Source of the DNA: a virus
Direction: 5' to 3' (one strand)
Virus record (IMG/VR): IMGVR_UViG_3300030107_001186
Span: 1-22,670 of that record
Length of the DNA stretch: 22,670 nt
Under the pieces are notes generated by a model. That model made no database searches. It worked only from the letters and a program-made list of their open reading frames with translations, and was not told where the DNA came from. Made by a program: the position numbers and the translations under genes. Shown here in pieces: positions 1-14,319 of the stretch. How positions within the stretch are numbered: the stretch's first letter is position 1; the number at the start of each line of letters is the position of its first letter.

Positions 1-530
1 ATCAGTTTGTAGTCGTATTCTTCAGAAAGTAATTTATTAAATTTCCATTGTGTTGTATCAGGTAAATTAGTTCCGTATACAATATTTTTTGGAAATGTTT
101 GTTTTAATGCAGCAGTTGACATTCCCACACCATTACCGAGATCTACTATGTTTGTATAATCTTTAATTAGTTTCTTAAAGCCAAATGGTGGTACATTTTG
201 ATTATTTTTGAGGTCATTTATATATTTGCGTGCATAAAAATCCCAACAGCACCATACTTCTGCTAAATAGATGTCCTCAGAATAGCAATCATAATCAGGA
301 TTATCGGTATTTCGCACGGAATTATACCAACGTGTTTCTAAATCAATCAGACTTTTTGCTGCTTTAATCCCTTTTTTCCCACCATCTGCAAGAAAGGCAT
401 TAGTTTGTGCAGCAGTTTGTGCAATTTCGTATGCTTTTGTATCTCCCAACCCTACTTGAGTTAGGAGATAGTAAAAGTATTTGATACCTACTGACCCTTT
501 CAGAGTCAGTAGGTCAGGTTTGTTTGTCAT
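1..530 (-). CDS. SAM-dependent methyltransferase-like protein, 3' end cut off by window
   Basis: The reading frame opens with ATG at 530 and stays open for 176 codons to the left edge, so the C-terminus is missing. Residues 127-138 read NIVDLGNGVGMS, which fits motif I of class I methyltransferases (hydrophobic strand, then D-L-G-x-G-x-G) that holds S-adenosylmethionine. A helical N-terminal region of about 120 residues, rich in Trp and Tyr, precedes it and I do not recognise it. The start overlaps the stop of the DUF932 gene as ATGA, so the two are translationally coupled and share a promoter. The cytosine-C5 signature DLFAGxGG is absent, so this is not an obvious C5-cytosine methyltransferase. 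The substrate could be DNA, RNA, protein or a small molecule; the catalytic motifs lie outside the window. Confidence 0.6.
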   Translation of the reverse strand, partial: MTNKPDLLTLKGSVGIKYFYYLLTQVGLGDTKAYEIAQTAAQTNAFLADGGKKGIKAAKSLIDLETRWYNSVRNTDNPDYDCYSEDIYLAEVWCCWDFYARKYINDLKNNQNVPPFGFKKLIKDYTNIVDLGNGVGMSTAALKQTFPKNIVYGTNLPDTTQWKFNKLLSEEYDYKL

Positions 531-1459
531 GCAGTAACAAGCATTTGTGTTTCTAGGTATTCAAGGAACTTTTTATTCATGTAATTTCTAGAACCATCTA
601 GTTGAGAAGCAAATGTTCTTTCATCTGTCTGGTCAGTCGCTTTTGTTCTGTTGTGGCTAGTGTATTGTGTCATTGCAGAAACAAGACCCCAAGCAGTTCC
701 GTTTCTAGATTCAAGATCACCACCGATAAGTCCTTCACTAAGGATTTTTTCAACAGTTCTAGTTTTAAGCATTTCAGCTTTCTCGTCATCAAAGAATCCT
801 CTGATAGCATTTTTTGCTGTATCCATTGTGATTGGTGTTTTAATACACTTGTCTTTGATTCTGTTGTATTCTTGGGATTCAGCAATTGCTGCATCAAGTA
901 CAGGTTGGACATCTCCGAATGTCATTTCTCTCAAGTGTGAGAAACAATTAAATCTTTGATGAATTTGTCTAGTCATTCCGTTTGTGCAAACTAGCTCATT
1001 GAACAGAACCATTACTTTTGGTGATTTTGATTCACCGTAGTAATCAGTTACAACTAACCAACTGTCGGTTTTATCTCCGACATCACTGAATTTTGTTTGA
1101 TCGTTAGTTAGTTTTGATGCCATGTAAAAAGTTTTGCCAGCATCAAATGACCCAACAAGGTCAAGTGTAATTTCTTTTTTACTTGCATCACAGAATTGTC
1201 TGAAATAATCAATGAATGTAGTTGGCTGAATACATTGGCGTCTTTTTCCAAATACACCCAATGCGTCCATATTGTCAGATCTATGCCAGATTTGTATTTC
1301 TGGATATTCTCTGTCATTAATTTTATGAGGTCTGCGGTCAACATTGAAGTTACAGCCGATTGAATTAAGAATGTCCTCGTTAGACATAAATCCATGAACC
1401 TCTGCTGCGGTTCCTCTAAACAGTTTTTGATCTGTTTTAGTTAGTTTTGAAGTAGGCAT
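527..1459 (-). CDS. DUF932-family phage/plasmid protein
   Basis: This 310-residue protein matches the DUF932 family, common in phages and plasmids and of unknown biochemical role. Hallmarks are the central LFNELVCTNGM segment (about residues 153-163) and the C-terminal NGTAWGLVSAMTQYTSH segment. The frame extends to a TTG at 1480. I prefer the ATG at 1459 because the promoter -10 box (1485-1490) would place the RNA start near 1478, on top of the TTG, leaving a leader of about 20 nt before the ATG. No Shine-Dalgarno sequence is visible. It is the first gene of a leftward unit and overlaps the methyltransferase-like gene by 4 nt. DUF932 genes often lie near replication or recombination genes, but nothing here proves that role. 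Confidence 0.85.
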   Translation of the reverse strand: MPTSKLTKTDQKLFRGTAAEVHGFMSNEDILNSIGCNFNVDRRPHKINDREYPEIQIWHRSDNMDALGVFGKRRQCIQPTTFIDYFRQFCDASKKEITLDLVGSFDAGKTFYMASKLTNDQTKFSDVGDKTDSWLVVTDYYGESKSPKVMVLFNELVCTNGMTRQIHQRFNCFSHLREMTFGDVQPVLDAAIAESQEYNRIKDKCIKTPITMDTAKNAIRGFFDDEKAEMLKTRTVEKILSEGLIGGDLESRNGTAWGLVSAMTQYTSHNRTKATDQTDERTFASQLDGSRNYMNKKFLEYLETQMLVTA

Positions 1460-1480
1460 TTGTTTGTTTGGTATCAACAA

Positions 1481-1500
1481 ATTAATTATAATACAATTAA
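1481..1500. repeat. 20-bp promoter repeat, copy 1 (near-palindrome, possible operator)
   Basis: ATTAATTATAATACAATTAA is identical to positions 2860-2879. Bases 1482-1500 form a 19-bp near-palindrome with arms TTAATTrTA/TAyAATTAA around a central base; only one mismatched pair plus the centre breaks symmetry. It covers the -10 box, where a dimeric repressor could block RNA polymerase. It may simply be a conserved AT-rich promoter core. Confidence 0.55.
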
Positions 1501-1513
1501 TGTAGTATTTAAA
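1485..1513 (-). promoter_or_regulatory. Leftward sigma70-type promoter for the DUF932 unit
   Basis: Read on the minus strand, the -10 box is TATAAT (1485-1490, perfect), the spacer is 17 bp, and the -35 box is TTTAAA (1508-1513, four of six matches to TTGACA). The predicted RNA start is near 1478, about 20 nt before the ATG at 1459. The -10 box sits inside a 20-bp sequence repeated exactly at the other leftward promoter. Assignment is by eye and assumes sigma70-like recognition. Confidence 0.6.
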
Positions 1514-1529
1514 CCCCCTTTTTTACACG

Positions 1530-1538
1530 CAGTAACAA
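1530..1538. promoter_or_regulatory. CAGTAACAA motif upstream of the DUF932 promoter
   Basis: The 9-mer CAGTAACAA is centred about 56 bp upstream of the predicted RNA start at 1478. The same 9-mer is at 2917-2925 upstream of the other leftward promoter. The similar placement suggests an activator site, but this is inference. Confidence 0.3.
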
Positions 1539-1568
1539 TTACTTTTCCTACATCAGGGGGTGTAGTGG

Positions 1569-1862
1569 CTATTTACGTTTACGTTCTTCTGCTTGTAACT
1601 TTTTACGATCAACTTGTTTAACTTTTTTTGTATTGCTTCCGTAATTCTTTTTTGGTCCATTGGTCTCGTTATATCGAATTGCTGATCTTATCCTTGCTAA
1701 GTTAATAGCTCTTGCCCTCAATGGGTCAGAGTCATTACTTTTATCAATTATTTTTAACCATTCGATTGTCTGATTAGGAAAGTTGGTTTTAAATTGGTGC
1801 AATCTTTCTATCTCACGAACAGAAAGATTGGGAAATGTACGCTGGTAAGAAGAATAATCCAT
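1569..1862 (-). CDS. Small basic protein of unknown function
   Basis: I do not recognise this 97-residue protein. The N-terminal 60 residues look helical, with a segment VREIERLHQFKTNFPNQTIEWL, reminiscent of a small DNA-binding or adaptor helix bundle. The last 30 residues are strongly basic (KKNYGSNTKKVKQVDRKKL and RKRK at the end), which would suit nucleic-acid binding. It is the last gene of the four-gene leftward unit. Its ATG shares one base with the stop of the preceding gene (TAATG) and has no Shine-Dalgarno sequence of its own, so it is probably translated by reinitiation. Confidence 0.7.
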   Translation of the reverse strand: MDYSSYQRTFPNLSVREIERLHQFKTNFPNQTIEWLKIIDKSNDSDPLRARAINLARIRSAIRYNETNGPKKNYGSNTKKVKQVDRKKLQAEERKRK

Positions 1863-2173
1863 TACATCAAACTGGTTTGATTGTATTCTTCTGGCTTTTT
1901 AGGCAATGTCCATAAATGTTCTTTTTTACCATAATTGCCCATAACAAATTCCTTTGTCTTTTCGAGTTTGCCATGATCAGATAAGTTGGTCATTGCTCTT
2001 CTGATTGAGGTTATTGGACATTTTAAACCAGAAATAGATAAGACCATTGATGGACTCAATGGCTTTTCATACTGATTAAAACATTTCATTATCCTTTGCT
2101 CTTGGGTTAGAGCTTGAGCTTGCGATTTGGCAAGCTCATCTGGATTTTCGTCTATTGTGTTAAAAAAAGTCAT
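1862..2173 (-). CDS. Winged-helix-like protein
   Basis: This 103-residue protein has the pattern of a small winged helix-turn-helix domain. Residues about 22-80 form helices ending in ITSIRRAMTNLSDHGKLEKT, the usual 'recognition helix then wing' layout (SxRRAxxxLxxxGxLEKT) of MarR/replication-initiator-like domains. That fits a DNA-binding regulator or replication accessory protein. The start overlaps the stop of the 133-aa gene by 4 nt (ATGA) and its own stop overlaps the next start, so it is embedded in a coupled operon. It could control its own promoter at 2864-2892; that is inference. Confidence 0.7.
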   Translation of the reverse strand: MTFFNTIDENPDELAKSQAQALTQEQRIMKCFNQYEKPLSPSMVLSISGLKCPITSIRRAMTNLSDHGKLEKTKEFVMGNYGKKEHLWTLPKKPEEYNQTSLM

Positions 2174-2571
2174 GGTGCAAACTCTGGGTATTGTTTAGTT
2201 AGTCTTTTTTCTATTGTTTTATAGTCCATATTCCATTCAACAAGACATTCAGTTTTTCTTTTCTGTATGTAGTCTTTACTGGCTTGCTCCCTTGCAATTT
2301 GTTTTCTTAAGTATTTAATTTGTTCTTTGTAATCTTTTATATGGCAATCACAGGTGTGAGCCATTTTGTCATATTTTTCAAGTTTAACAAAATGTTCGTC
2401 ATCAGCACCCATTGGTCCATCAAGTATTCTTCTCAGGTAACTTTCATCACAATTAAAGTCATCTGACCAATGTTCTGATTCTTCTCCACCAAGATCAAAC
2501 ATCTTGGTGTGGAATTTATCAAGTATTGCGAAGGCTTTTCTAGCCTGATTTAAATAATGACCTCGTTTCAT
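2170..2571 (-). CDS. Coiled-coil protein of unknown function
   Basis: This is a 133-residue protein I do not recognise. Residues about 80-125 are highly charged and helical (KDYKEQIKYLRKQIAREQ is typical), likely a coiled coil, so it probably forms oligomers or binds a partner. A CxC pair (residues 94-96) lies before the coil. The start is well supported: GGAGGG lies 7 nt upstream of the ATG, inside the end of the preceding gene, whose TAA directly abuts this ATG. The 3' end overlaps the winged-helix gene by 4 nt. Confidence 0.75.
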   Translation of the reverse strand: MKRGHYLNQARKAFAILDKFHTKMFDLGGEESEHWSDDFNCDESYLRRILDGPMGADDEHFVKLEKYDKMAHTCDCHIKDYKEQIKYLRKQIAREQASKDYIQKRKTECLVEWNMDYKTIEKRLTKQYPEFAP

Positions 2572-2835
2572 TTATTTGCCCTCCTTGTATTCTTCGTTAA
2601 CTTCCCAAAGCTGTTTGATTGCAGTAGCAACAAGTACACCCTCTCCTTCTCCAAACATAAGAAGTTGATTTAAAACATCTTTAATTGGATTTGGTGCTGA
2701 ATTGTACATTGCTGCATAATCATTAGCAATTGTTTCGACCATGTTCTTCATGTCGATTCTTTCAAGCTCTTGCTCGTAGGCTTCATGATCCTCTTGGGTC
2801 ATGTAGTCTTTAGTCTGTTTTGTTTGATTAGTCAT
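2572..2835 (-). CDS. Small acidic protein of unknown function, first gene of leftward operon
   Basis: The protein has 87 residues from the ATG at 2835. The frame reaches an upstream ATG at 2859, but the promoter -10 box is only 5 nt from it, so the RNA would start near 2857, at or inside that codon. The ATG at 2835 has AGAGG 4-5 nt upstream and a leader of about 22 nt, so I prefer it. The product is acidic and mostly helical (YEQELERIDMKNMVETIAND), ending VNEEYKEGK. I recognise no family. Its stop abuts the next ATG at 2571, and its last codons carry that gene's ribosome-binding site. Confidence 0.7.
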   Translation of the reverse strand: MTNQTKQTKDYMTQEDHEAYEQELERIDMKNMVETIANDYAAMYNSAPNPIKDVLNQLLMFGEGEGVLVATAIKQLWEVNEEYKEGK

Positions 2836-2859
2836 AAGACCTCTGTTTTGTTTTGACAT

Positions 2860-2879
2860 ATTAATTATAATACAATTAA
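2860..2879. repeat. 20-bp promoter repeat, copy 2 (near-palindrome, possible operator)
   Basis: Exact second copy of the 20-mer at 1481-1500, again with the -10 box inside it. The flanks differ between the copies, so the conservation is limited to the -10 region and its symmetric arms. Confidence 0.55.
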
Positions 2880-2892
2880 AAGTAATTGTAAA
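2864..2892 (-). promoter_or_regulatory. Strong leftward sigma70-type promoter
   Basis: On the minus strand the -35 box is TTTACA (2887-2892, five of six), the spacer is 17 bp and the -10 box is TATAAT (2864-2869, perfect). This is the best consensus promoter I found. The predicted RNA start is near 2857, giving a short leader to the ATG at 2835. It drives the four-gene leftward unit. Confidence 0.75.
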
Positions 2893-2907
2893 CCAATTAA
2901 TTTTGAT

Positions 2908-2925
2908 GTAACATCACAGTAACAA
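2908..2925. promoter_or_regulatory. GTAACA direct repeat in the divergent promoter region
   Basis: GTAACA occurs at 2908-2913 and 2919-2924, an 11-bp period (one helical turn). The second copy is part of CAGTAACAA (2917-2925), shared with 1530-1538. The repeat lies about 50-65 bp upstream of the predicted leftward RNA start and 10-27 bp before the rightward ATG at 2935, so one protein could affect both directions. Functional role is inference. Confidence 0.35.
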
Positions 2926-2934
2926 CTTATTTAT

Positions 2935-3888
2935 ATGCGACATTTAGTTACTGGTGGTGCTGGCTTTTTGGGATCACATCTGGTCGACTCACTAATAAAA
3001 GACAATCAAGAAGTCATTTGTCTTGATAATTTCCATACTGGCAAAAAAAGAAACGTTGCCCATCTGATTGGTCACAAGAACTTCGAACTGATTAGACATG
3101 ACGTAATTGAGCCTATACTGCTAGAAGTTGACCGCATTTGGCATTTAGCTTGTCCAGCAAGTCCTGTTCAGTACCAAATAAATCCCATAAAGACCATAAA
3201 AACTAGCTTTTTTGGTACATATAATATGCTCGGATTAGCGAAAAGATCGGGAGCAAAAATACTTTTTACCAGTACTTCAGAGATTTATGGTGACCCACAA
3301 ATTCACCCACAGCCTGAATATTATCTAGGCAATGTAAATACAATTGGACCTCGTGCTTGTTATGACGAAGGAAAAAGAATATCAGAAACATTGATGACCG
3401 ATTATAAAAGAGTTAATAATGTAGAGATTCGAATTGCTCGTATATTTAATACTTATGGTCCAAGAATGTTAAAAAATGATGGAAGGGTTGTTAGTAACTT
3501 TATTACACAGGCATTAGCTAATAAACCAATTACTGTTTATGGAACAGGAACGCAAACTAGGTGCTTTTGTTATGTAGATGATATGGTTGCTGGTCTAAAA
3601 AAACTTATGGATTCTGATTGCTCAAAACCAATAAACTTAGGCAATCCTGTAGAAATTACAGTTAACGAGTTGGCAATGCGTATAACAAATAAAATAAATG
3701 CTGCTTTGCCCCATGTAAATTTACCATTACCAGAAGATGACCCACAAAGAAGAAACCCAGATATTACATTGGCAAAAGAAACTTTAGATTGGTTGCCGAC
3801 AGTATCACTTGATGATGGACTTGAGGAAACAATAGACTATTTCAAGTCATTTAAAAAAATTACTTGGAATAAGGAGGCTGCATATTAA
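2935..3888 (+). CDS. UDP-glucuronate decarboxylase (UDP-xylose synthase) / SDR sugar-nucleotide enzyme
   Basis: This 317-residue extended SDR enzyme is predicted to convert UDP-glucuronate to UDP-xylose with NAD+. The NAD-binding glycine motif TGGAGFLG is at residues 6-13. Family hallmarks follow: HLACPASP (70-77), STSEIYGDP (113-121), the YxxxK catalytic pair Y143 and K147 in [18 protein letters not shown] (168-178), DGRVVSNF (182-189) and the [10 protein letters not shown] segment (200-209). The combination is closer to UXS than to dTDP-glucose dehydratase or GalE. Length is normal for a cytosolic UXS, so it looks intact. The ATG has no Shine-Dalgarno sequence. The gene opens the rightward cluster and its stop overlaps the ParB-like gene (TAATG), suggesting the sugar is used with the downstream glycosyltransferase. 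A role in host surface polysaccharide is the main alternative. Confidence 0.9.
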
Positions 3889-5207
3889 TGGGAGCTTCAG
3901 TATTCGAAATTGAGCATAATGGATTGTTTTATGAATTTGAATTTGATTCTGAACATAAATGGGTACATCACACAAAGTGGCCTGATGGAAAAACTTCCTA
4001 CTGTCTTTTACAAAATGCAGGTGGTACTTTGGAGAGAGCAAAGAAAAGGTGTAGAGAGCATATTATTGCTTGGTACGAAAATCCAGAAAGCTTTCATGTT
4101 GACGATAAATATGTCGACATGAATAATAAGTACATTAAAAAAATGCAAAAACGCAAGGAGGACTTAGGTACTGTGATTTCAACAGAATGTAGCTTATCAG
4201 AGCTAAAACCATACAAAAACAATTCAAAAATACATCCAGAACAACAAATAAAGAATATTGTTGCATCAATAAAACAGTTTGGATTTACACAGCCAATTGT
4301 TTGTGATGAAGAAAAAACTATTCTTTCTGGTCATGGAAGATACGAAGCTGCAAAACAAATGCAGATTGATGAAGTACCAATTCGTATTGTAGAAAATTTA
4401 ACTGATGCACAAAAAAAGGCTTATGTTATTGCTGATAATAAAATTGCAGAACAGTCTGAATGGGATGAAAGCAAGGTGTTAGAAGAACTAGGTAATATAT
4501 CAAACTTGGATGATTTGCACCAAGATATTGTTAATTTATTGGACTTTAATACATTTTCCTTTTATACAGTTAGACAAATGGCTGTAGCAGATTTAAAGCC
4601 ACATCCAAAAAACTACAAGTCACACCCTGCAGATCAGCTTGAACATTTGAAACAATCCATAACTGATAATGGGATTTACAGAAATGTAATCGTTGCAAAG
4701 GATAATACGATACTTGCAGGGCATGGTGTTGTTAAAGCTGCACAGTCTTTAGGGTTATCATCTGTACCTGTGTTGAAATTAGAGCTTGAATCAGATAGTA
4801 TTGAGGCTGTTAAGTTACTAACAGCCGATAACGAAGTTTCGCATTTAGGCGAAGTAGATGATCGTGCATTATCAAATATTCTTAAAGAGATTATGGAAAA
4901 AAGTGATCTCTTAGGTACCGGCTATGATGAAATGATGTTGCAGAACTTGTTATATGTAACAAGACCAGCATCAGAAATAAAAACAACAGACCATGCTGCT
5001 GAATGGTTAGGTATGCCTGATTTTGAAATATCTGACCCTGTAAAAAAATTACACGTTAACTTTGAAACATATGAGGACAAAAAAGCCTTTTGCGAACAGA
5101 ATGGCTTTGATTATTTAGAAAAAACAGACGAATCTATTTGGTTTCCACAAAAAGAAAGACGAGATATTACATCTGTAGGATTTGAGGTAGAAAATGAAGA
5201 AGCCTAA
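3888..5207 (+). CDS. Tandem ParB-like domain protein
   Basis: This 439-residue protein has two ParB N-terminal-like (ParB/sulfiredoxin fold) domains. The first spans about 98-195, beginning LSELKPYKNNSKIHPEQQ, with SGHGRYEAAK at 147-156. The second spans about 228-325, beginning VADLKPHPKNYKSHPADQ, with AGHGVVKAAQ at 277-286. In the second the Arg after GHG is Val, so that copy may have lost nucleotide chemistry. Residues 1-75 form a separate small domain. The C-terminus (371-420; AEWLGMPDFE and ESIWFP) resembles a tail I recall from other phage ParB-like proteins. There is no ParB centromere-binding HTH, so plasmid partition is unlikely. Such proteins accompany phage DNA-modification genes as predicted nucleases or NTP-binding enzymes. 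The 3' end overlaps the glycosyltransferase by 14 nt. Confidence 0.87.
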   Translation: MGASVFEIEHNGLFYEFEFDSEHKWVHHTKWPDGKTSYCLLQNAGGTLERAKKRCREHIIAWYENPESFHVDDKYVDMNNKYIKKMQKRKEDLGTVISTECSLSELKPYKNNSKIHPEQQIKNIVASIKQFGFTQPIVCDEEKTILSGHGRYEAAKQMQIDEVPIRIVENLTDAQKKAYVIADNKIAEQSEWDESKVLEELGNISNLDDLHQDIVNLLDFNTFSFYTVRQMAVADLKPHPKNYKSHPADQLEHLKQSITDNGIYRNVIVAKDNTILAGHGVVKAAQSLGLSSVPVLKLELESDSIEAVKLLTADNEVSHLGEVDDRALSNILKEIMEKSDLLGTGYDEMMLQNLLYVTRPASEIKTTDHAAEWLGMPDFEISDPVKKLHVNFETYEDKKAFCEQNGFDYLEKTDESIWFPQKERRDITSVGFEVENEEA

Positions 5208-6075
5208 TTATCCTGTATATGTTATATCAAAGGGTAGATATGATGCTTGTTTAACTGCAAACTTTTTACTGAAAGATCAAGTTGACTTTCGTATTGTTGT
5301 AGAACCACAGGAATTTGATAAGTATGCCAAGCACTACGATCCGTCAATAATTATAAAAACACCTTTTCAAAATTTAGGTTTGGGATCAATACCAGTTAGA
5401 AATTTTGTTTGGGAGCATAGCAATTCTATTGGAGCAAAAAGACATTGGATAATAGATGATAATATACGCAGTATTTACAGAAAGTATAAAAATACTCGTA
5501 TTCGTTGTAATGCAAATGTTGGTCTTAGATGTTGCGAGGACTTTACTGACAGGTATACAAACATAGCAATATCAGGATTAAATTACGTTTCGTTTGCTAT
5601 AAAACGAAACCAACCACCATTTCAGTTAAATGCTCATGTATATTCGACCCTGTTAATTGATAATTCATTGGATATAAGATGGCGTGGTAGATATAACGAA
5701 GATACTGATTTATGTTTACAAGCATTGTCGTTGGGATACTGCACTGTCAACTTTAATGCATTTTTAATAGAAAAAATGCACACAATGACAATGAAAGGAG
5801 GCAATACAGACCAACTTTATAAAGGTGATGGTAGATTAACAATGGCAAGAAGTTTAGAAAAATTGTGGCCAAAAGTAGTACAAACAAAGAGAAGATTTCA
5901 AAGACCACAGCACGTTGTACATAATAATTGGCAGAAATTTGATACACAATTAATAAGAAGAAAAGATATAGATTGGGAAAAAATACAAAAAACAGATAAT
6001 TATGGATTACGATTAGTTCAACTGAAACAACCAAAAAGTGGTTCACAAGAACTAAAAAAACTTTTTGATGAATAA
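5194..6075 (+). CDS. TET-associated glycosyltransferase-like (TAGT) protein
   Basis: The 293-residue protein resembles the TAGT group of GT-A-type glycosyltransferases found in phage base-modification loci. Visible marks are the N-terminal YPVYVISKGR strand-loop (6-15), VVEPQEFDKYAKHY (35-48), NLGLGSIPVRN (60-70), the DxD-like RHWIIDDNIR (83-92; D88, D89), NEDTDLC (168-174) and MKGGNTDQLYKG (200-211). Established view: TAGT enzymes are linked with TET/JBP dioxygenases and thought to glycosylate 5-hydroxymethylated pyrimidines in phage DNA. Inference: the UXS gene two positions upstream supplies a UDP-pentose donor. No TET gene is in the window. The start overlaps the ParB-like gene by 14 nt, and its TAA directly abuts the small terminase ATG. 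Confidence 0.82.
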   Translation: MKKPNYPVYVISKGRYDACLTANFLLKDQVDFRIVVEPQEFDKYAKHYDPSIIIKTPFQNLGLGSIPVRNFVWEHSNSIGAKRHWIIDDNIRSIYRKYKNTRIRCNANVGLRCCEDFTDRYTNIAISGLNYVSFAIKRNQPPFQLNAHVYSTLLIDNSLDIRWRGRYNEDTDLCLQALSLGYCTVNFNAFLIEKMHTMTMKGGNTDQLYKGDGRLTMARSLEKLWPKVVQTKRRFQRPQHVVHNNWQKFDTQLIRRKDIDWEKIQKTDNYGLRLVQLKQPKSGSQELKKLFDE

Positions 6076-14097: not shown

Positions 14098-14319
14098 ATG
14101 AGCTACTACCCAGCTGCCAAAATCATTAATGATACTGATGCACATACAGGTCGATTTGGTTGTGTTCAAGCAATCAAAGATTCTGAAATTGCAACTTTAG
14201 TGGCAGAGAATATTACTGGTGATCTTACAAGTATTGATCTGAAATCTAATTGTAAGATTGAAGGTGTTATTACTAGCATTACACTTGCAAGTGGAACTGT
14301 TGTTGCTTATTTAATATGA
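14098..14319 (+). CDS. Small structural-type protein of unknown function
   Basis: This 73-residue protein reads MSYYPAAKIINDTDAHTGRF, then a beta-rich remainder ending in GVITSITLASGTVVAYLI. It has a strong ribosome-binding site (AAGGAG, 6 nt before ATG), and its stop overlaps the next start by 4 nt. The terminal repeated strands suggest a small beta-barrel or spike-like structural protein. I know no named function; its place among connector genes suggests a minor virion component. Confidence 0.7.
   Translation: MSYYPAAKIINDTDAHTGRFGCVQAIKDSEIATLVAENITGDLTSIDLKSNCKIEGVITSITLASGTVVAYLI

Follow-up and report, generated by a model that had tools for sequence, protein, structure and literature searches.

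The 22,670-base IMG/VR virus record analyzed here (the window, taken at its full length) carries the same near-palindrome over the −10 boxes of two leftward promoters. With fair confidence we infer from sequence comparisons that this 19-bp near-palindrome is an operator through which a phage DNA-binding regulator, most likely a ribbon–helix–helix (RHH)-like protein of 58–62 amino acids (aa), would bind and repress. The element recurs in related phages, and it does so together with the gene of the candidate protein.

A Near-Palindrome over the Boxes of Two Promoters

The 20-mer ATTAATTATAATACAATTAA occurs exactly at 1481–1500 and 2860–2879, and both copies hold TATAAT on the minus strand with a hexamer 17 bp upstream, as pointed out in an earlier sequence-only reading of this DNA. 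The near-symmetry described there is also borne out, with 8 of 9 base pairs in the dyad. When up to three mismatches were allowed, the window gave one further match, the element's own near-palindromic reverse on the other strand (1482–1501), and shuffled sequence gave a mean of 0.07 matches. The core common to both copies reads TTAATTGTATTATAATTAA on the minus strand.

The promoter at the 2860 copy (P1) has TTTACA upstream and a promoter score of 11/12, the highest in positions 1–6000, and the one at the 1481 copy (P2) has TTTAAA and a score of 10/12. Promoter-like matches are not enriched in positions 1–6000 (20 versus 24.6 ± 4.6 in shuffles), hence the promoter status of P1 and P2 rests on the recurrence of the element and not on the scan. 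In what follows, a site is any sequence with at least 15 of 18 matches to the symmetric form TTAATTGTAnTACAATTAA, a consensus derived from the same sites. By this measure a third, weaker copy (15/18), missed in the sequence-only reading, lies at 2882–2900, 21 bp from the copy at 2861. It spans the −35 of P1, so both promoter boxes of P1 would be situated within operators. The AATT boxes across the P1 pair are spaced by 11, 10, and 11 bp, and pairs of this type were found also in the relatives G001, G004, G006, G008, and G012. The putative operators (O1 and O2 at P1) and the promoter boxes are as follows:

1482–1500, minus strand: putative operator at P2, TTAATTGTATTATAATTAA on the minus strand, over the −10 (exact repeat; 17/18 versus the symmetric consensus; dyad 8/9)
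1485–1490, minus strand: P2 −10 hexamer TATAAT (promoter scan)
1508–1513, minus strand: P2 −35-like hexamer TTTAAA, 17 bp from the −10 (promoter scan; variable among relatives)
2861–2879, minus strand: putative operator O1 at P1, over the −10 (exact repeat; 17/18; dyad 8/9)
2864–2869, minus strand: P1 −10 hexamer TATAAT (promoter scan)
2882–2900, minus strand: putative operator O2 at P1, TTAATTGGTTTACAATTAC, over the −35, 21 bp upstream of O1 (15/18)
2887–2892, minus strand: P1 −35 hexamer TTTACA, within O2 (promoter scan)

Another repeat, CAGTAACAA (TTGTTACTG on the minus strand), was noticed at 2904–2925, 1530–1538, and 532–540 of the window, upstream of P1, P2, and the open reading frame (ORF) at 3–530, respectively; its P1 copy lies next to the palindrome TGATGTAACATCA. 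At some promoters of other lineages similar TGTTACWG boxes were seen by eye about 47 bp upstream of the −10, sometimes repeated 10–11 bp apart. The CAGTAACAA/TGTTACWG element is a possible activator site.

Recurrence, Placement, and Conservation of the Sites

Twenty IMG/VR contigs besides the window, in 21 stretches altogether, contain the exact 20-mer, with up to five exact copies per contig; the occurrence in L006, a contig without any of the family's genes, was taken as chance. Altogether, 91 sites were counted in 13 contigs (the window included, partly redundant). Eighty-four of them are intergenic and these mostly lie just before leftward, presumed early, genes. A genome of approximately 40 kb has about nine of these putative operators. 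The test suggested with the sequence-only reading, whether sites concentrate outside genes, was run on the window and two relatives, with noncoding DNA defined as lying outside ATG-started ORFs of at least 60 aa (fractions 0.133 in the window, 0.129 in G004, and 0.107 in G309). Sites were noncoding in 3/3 cases in the window, 9/9 in G004, and 9/9 in G309, with binomial P values for such placement of 0.0023, 9.6e-9, and 1.9e-9, respectively. Permuted palindromes of equal composition (about 60) gave a mean of 0.93 sites (maximum 5) in these three sequences, against 21 for the actual one.

Within G309, all nine sites are located in or beside the leftward block and none in the 30-gene rightward block (374–21979). 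Among AT-rich terminase contigs without an early-gene match, 13 of 14 were siteless, the site of L079 lying 3.2 kb before the terminase, and only L081 among the AT-rich terminase loci checked had a site after the terminase start (one, weak, 15/18). The idea that a phage DNA-binding protein coordinates both leftward units through this operator fits well, as the palindrome is found again at leftward-block promoters and in relatives, for the most part in intergenic DNA.

Gaps between neighbouring sites are mostly 20–21, 31, or 39–41 bp, those of 35–36, 52, and 75 bp being also present. Four-site arrays stand between divergent genes in G004, L056, and L058. The array of G004 (L029 2378–2497) has its four sites in about 120 bp, with gaps of 40, 40, and 21 bp, and similar arrays occupy L056 5063–5178 and L058 8310–8424.

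Conservation was assessed on 90 oriented sites reduced to 52 nonredundant ones at 70% identity. Each AATT-box position is conserved in 48–52 of the 52 sites, and within the inner core positions 8, 9, 11, and 12 are conserved in 50, 49, 52, and 51 of them, respectively; positions 7 and 13 are less conserved (43/52 and 33/52). Two layouts were distinguished by a rule written post hoc, which assigned to class II two sites whose ATG lies at an odd distance (15 and 72 nucleotides, nt). In class I the site lies over the −10, usually with TTTACA or TTGACA about 17 bp upstream, and the ATG is mostly 15–26 nt away. In class II it directly precedes a separate TATAAT, with the ATG mostly at 32–38 nt and often with a second site 39–40 bp upstream. 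Where the site serves as the −10, 11 of 18 promoters have T at position 13, the base that breaks the symmetry and creates TATAAT; elsewhere 8 of 34 sites have it (Fisher p = 0.014). At some promoters the palindrome covers the −10 and at others a separate −10 follows it, a pattern that suggests the binding site of a protein more than a promoter consensus. At several promoters the palindromic site overlaps promoter elements, as the operator of a repressor does.

A Candidate RHH-like Regulator

The candidate regulator is a protein of 58–62 aa starting with MARRPKGS or MANRPKGS (M-A-[RN]-R-P-K-G-S), with RTxVxQ[SA]K conserved in the expected strand. Its gene was present in 16 of the 16 contigs holding both a DUF932 gene and a helicase-like gene, and it was incomplete in one more. 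A protein search made independently of the DNA motif returned 43 candidate stretches; 11 contigs were confirmed and 11/11 had sites, and the motif-bearing contig L044 was newly found in this way. After addition of DUF932 and terminase searches, the RHH-positive contigs numbered 17, all of them (17/17) with a site of at least 16/18. In 12 of the 17 (G002, G004, G006, G008, G011, G012, L012, L020, L044, and L055–L057) a site of 15–16/18 precedes the RHH gene itself, at its presumed own promoter. The RHH gene of G004 lies directly behind the gene matching window ORF 3–530, so that the window phage should have its RHH gene immediately beyond the left edge of the window.

When searched against PHROGs, the G004 protein matched phrog_7325 (CopG-like, 2.6e-4) and phrog_3431 (Arc-like, 2.6e-3); nothing significant was found for the RHH-like protein in NCBIfam or among PDB sequences. 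Its structural model, with helices predicted at 21–34 and 38–52, was matched to CopG (Z 6.0, 1.6 Å over 44 residues) and to Arc (Z 5.7, 2.0 Å over 45 residues). The RHH partition protein ParG is also among the fold matches.

Several observations weigh against the RHH-like protein as the regulator or against the operator itself. The −35 of P2 is poor. The RHH gene lies outside the window, its neighbouring presence being deduced from close relatives, and 5 of the 17 RHH-positive contigs (G003, G007, G009, L058, and L080) have no own-promoter site of at least 15/18, with L058 and L080 reaching 14/18. One of the two lineages tried in PHROGs matched, the G009 sequence giving no match, and the Pfam search of the RHH-like protein gave nothing significant. 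The fold matches are weak (Foldseek E 1.4 or worse, Z under 8), and the region of the N-terminal strand was modelled as a helix (monomer, mean pLDDT 75). The RHH, DUF932, 97-aa protein, and helicase-like genes travel together in one clade, hence co-occurrence with the sites does not single out the RHH gene. Neither operator nor RHH was found in the GC-rich terminase relatives L083–L141 (n = 59; the terminase search used the best 80 of 591 relatives) or in the distant DUF932 relative L062, and the base composition of the GC-rich relatives alone disfavours an AT-rich site. Finally, the comparison of T13 between class I and class II alone gave p = 0.10, and 25 of the 52 sites belong to neither class.

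The Phage Group and Its Likely Host

The window terminase is 70–73% identical to those of the siphophages MED4-117, MED4-184, KBS-S-2A, and S-H1 of Prochlorococcus/Synechococcus, and because of this identity a picocyanobacterium is probably the host of the window phage. These four phages had no sites at up to 4 mismatches to the 20-mer, nothing in them clearly matched the RHH protein, and positions 1–3000 of the window showed no DNA similarity to isolated phages. A host was also sought via a terminase search of genome contigs, which gave two loci only, neither informative. Of 292 cyanobacterial genomes, one contained the 19-mer TTAATTGTANTAYAATTAA and a different one contained the reversed control. 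The lone perfect dyad in the former (L147) is located at G062:C10:32298–32316.

Two relatives look complete: G004 (40,555 bases), with genes at both ends duplicated and the same gene order as the window, and G309 (41,346 bases), whose first 40 bases are repeated about 100 bases from the end and whose gene order is related to that of the window. KBS-S-2A encodes an annotated RNA polymerase sigma factor with a Sigma70_r2 match (L026 7779–8708).

Genes Behind P1 and P2

The genes following the two promoters are all on the minus strand:

530–1459, minus strand: DUF932 (TIGR03299-like) protein, 310 aa, first gene behind P2 (Pfam PF06067, 7.5e-14)
1569–1862, minus strand: 97-aa helical protein of the P1 operon (relatives in each lineage compared; fold match not convincing)
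1862–2173, minus strand: 103-aa protein of the P1 operon, phrog_9069, the binder proposed in the sequence-only reading (PHROGs)
2170–2571, minus strand: second gene of the P1 operon, 133 aa (sequence; family searches gave no assignment)
2572–2835, minus strand: first P1 gene, 87 aa from the second ATG, with AGAGG 4 nt upstream (sequence)

The match of the DUF932 protein to NCBIfam TIGR03299 (2.2e-19, 69.8 bits) falls under the cut-off of 110.7. The likely RNA starts coincide with the first possible codons, TTG at 1480 and ATG at 2859, so the later ATGs at 1459 (DUF932 gene) and 2835 (first P1 gene) would be the better starts.

On the far side of P1, the protein encoded at 3888–5207, with two ParB-N stretches, stands between an epimerase (2935–3888) and a TET-associated glycosyltransferase (5194–6075). 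This cassette directly precedes the terminase and might have a role in DNA modification. The product of ORF 3–530 has a glycine-rich stretch and resembles, by eye alone, a SAM-dependent methyltransferase.

Alternative Explanations

It is unlikely, in our judgement, that there is no repressor site and that the extra conserved bases around the −10 reflect a strong early promoter consensus or the site of an activator or a phage-specified polymerase. Such an explanation would suit the class I promoters, with their near-consensus −35 and −10 boxes at a spacing of about 17 bp, and the second conserved element, TGTTACWG, seen by eye about 47 bp upstream of several −10s. However, the palindrome also precedes a separate −10 in class II, forms arrays at divergent promoters, and occurs in perfectly symmetric versions, and a Sigma70_r2 domain was found in none of 13 motif-bearing records (mostly fragments, one unrelated; L055–L058, L080, and L044 not searched). 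The promoter of a phage sigma factor was set aside on this result and on the lack of the motif in the sigma-bearing KBS-S-2A.

It is improbable that the phage exploits the site of a host regulator, e.g., TrcR or another RHH repressor of cyanobacteria. TrcR of Anabaena is an RHH repressor whose target region, containing ATACTACACTTGTATTAC, overlaps the −10 of its own promoter; this own-promoter motif, found on or near −10 boxes, shares TTGTATTAC by eye with the core of the palindrome (PMC10272220). A host regulon was nevertheless set aside, given that TTAATTGTANTAYAATTAA matched as few cyanobacterial genomes as its reversed control. The phage RHH profile gave no match at E 0.001 in the 292 cyanobacterial genomes and none below E 0.3 in a Nodularia phage to which a TrcR homologue has been ascribed, neither search having a positive control. 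A link to TrcR by homology was set aside on the lack of a clear match in the Nodularia phage, the TrcR sequence itself not being compared.

An equally small chance is given to a partition or immunity array, in which the RHH protein and its sites would form a centromere or the lysogeny switch of a non-integrating prophage. The four-site arrays between divergent genes and the presence of ParG among the fold matches speak for it; many sites, however, are single ones at promoters. Tyrosine integrase (PF00589), resolvase (PF00239), and the ParA-type domain AAA_31 (PF13614) were each found in 0 of 11 records, mostly fragments, with the apparently complete G004 and G309 among them. The partition array was set aside for the lack of the ParA-type domain, and, as none of the three domains was found, we favour early-gene shut-off over lysogeny or a plasmid switch.

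Binding by the 103-aa winged-helix-like protein of the P1 operon, the proposal of the sequence-only reading, has become very improbable. The gene does sit under P1, and distant mycobacteriophage relatives of the protein are annotated as helix-turn-helix proteins. Its relatives (P-SSP7, mycobacteriophages), however, belong to other phage groups, and among the contigs compared the protein was found in the window lineage only. A tblastn search gave no match in G002 (from base 14189 only), G003, G007, G009, G011, L055–L058, and L080. All ten of these contigs carry the sites and the neighbouring gene block, and it is this presence of sites without the gene that makes the 103-aa protein an unlikely binder; the RHH-like protein appears the better candidate. 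The 97-aa protein was also set aside, though only provisionally, as a binder, its helical model giving no convincing fold match.

Just as remote is bending of promoter DNA by phased AATT tracts (every 10–11 bp) without a specific protein, which would account for the 11, 10, and 11 bp spacing at P1 but not for an inner core conserved as strongly as the AATT boxes.

Discussion

Under the favoured explanation, a phage operator bound by the RHH-like protein, the leftward genes, presumably for early functions and replication, would be transcribed at once upon infection. RHH dimers would then occupy each of the two half-sites of an operator, the AATT boxes of which are one helical turn apart, and would align side by side along neighbouring sites. 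The bound protein would block host RNA polymerase of the sigma70 type at the −10 or the −35, from two adjacent operators over both boxes at P1 and from one over the −10 at P2. As it accumulates, the RHH protein would shut off the early genes plus its own gene.

The Arc protein of phage P22 is a small phage RHH protein whose operator lies over an early promoter and which exerts early shut-off and self-control at one divergent promoter pair. The proposed system resembles it in all but the last feature: here about nine operators per genome would serve many promoters, and the operator sequence is another one. Among archaeal viruses, AvtR and SvtR are RHH regulators that have multiple sites in the genome of their virus (eight potential ones for AvtR), repress themselves, and were proposed to spread along neighbouring sites (PMC5569661). 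These features are shared with the system proposed here, but the hosts and promoters of AvtR and SvtR are archaeal, their site sequences differ, and AvtR, a monomer with RHH domains in tandem, is in addition an activator (PMC5569661). TrcR is likewise an RHH repressor with sites on or near −10 boxes, its own included, and with TTGTATTAC in common with the core by eye, but it is chromosomal, acts on translation genes, and has an 8-bp consensus (PMC10272220). The stoperators of mycobacteriophages are many dispersed sites of one phage repressor, asymmetric and also terminating elongation (PMC9283540); the sites described here are similarly numerous and dispersed, but they are near-palindromes located mostly at promoters.

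The type of switch, a dispersed set of phage operators with a likely RHH regulator, is hence familiar; a description of this particular system was not found. Among the open-access papers listed, searches that included the letters of the motif gave no description of an operator or early regulator in the cyanosiphophage relatives.

More tentatively, and as a possibility about which we remain rather doubtful, an apparently integrase-less clade of siphophages related to marine cyanophages may use one tiny RHH protein as a genome-wide early off switch in a lytic phage. The protein would stack, with roughly one dimer to each helical turn, on operators with phased AATT boxes at early promoters and on a four-site divergent array, with a core that is TrcR-like.

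The site, its promoters, and one 58-aa candidate together offer a sharp experimental handle on the timing of gene expression in uncultured phages. The motif could moreover serve as a marker by which presumed early promoters, and phages of this group, are recognised in bare DNA sequence.

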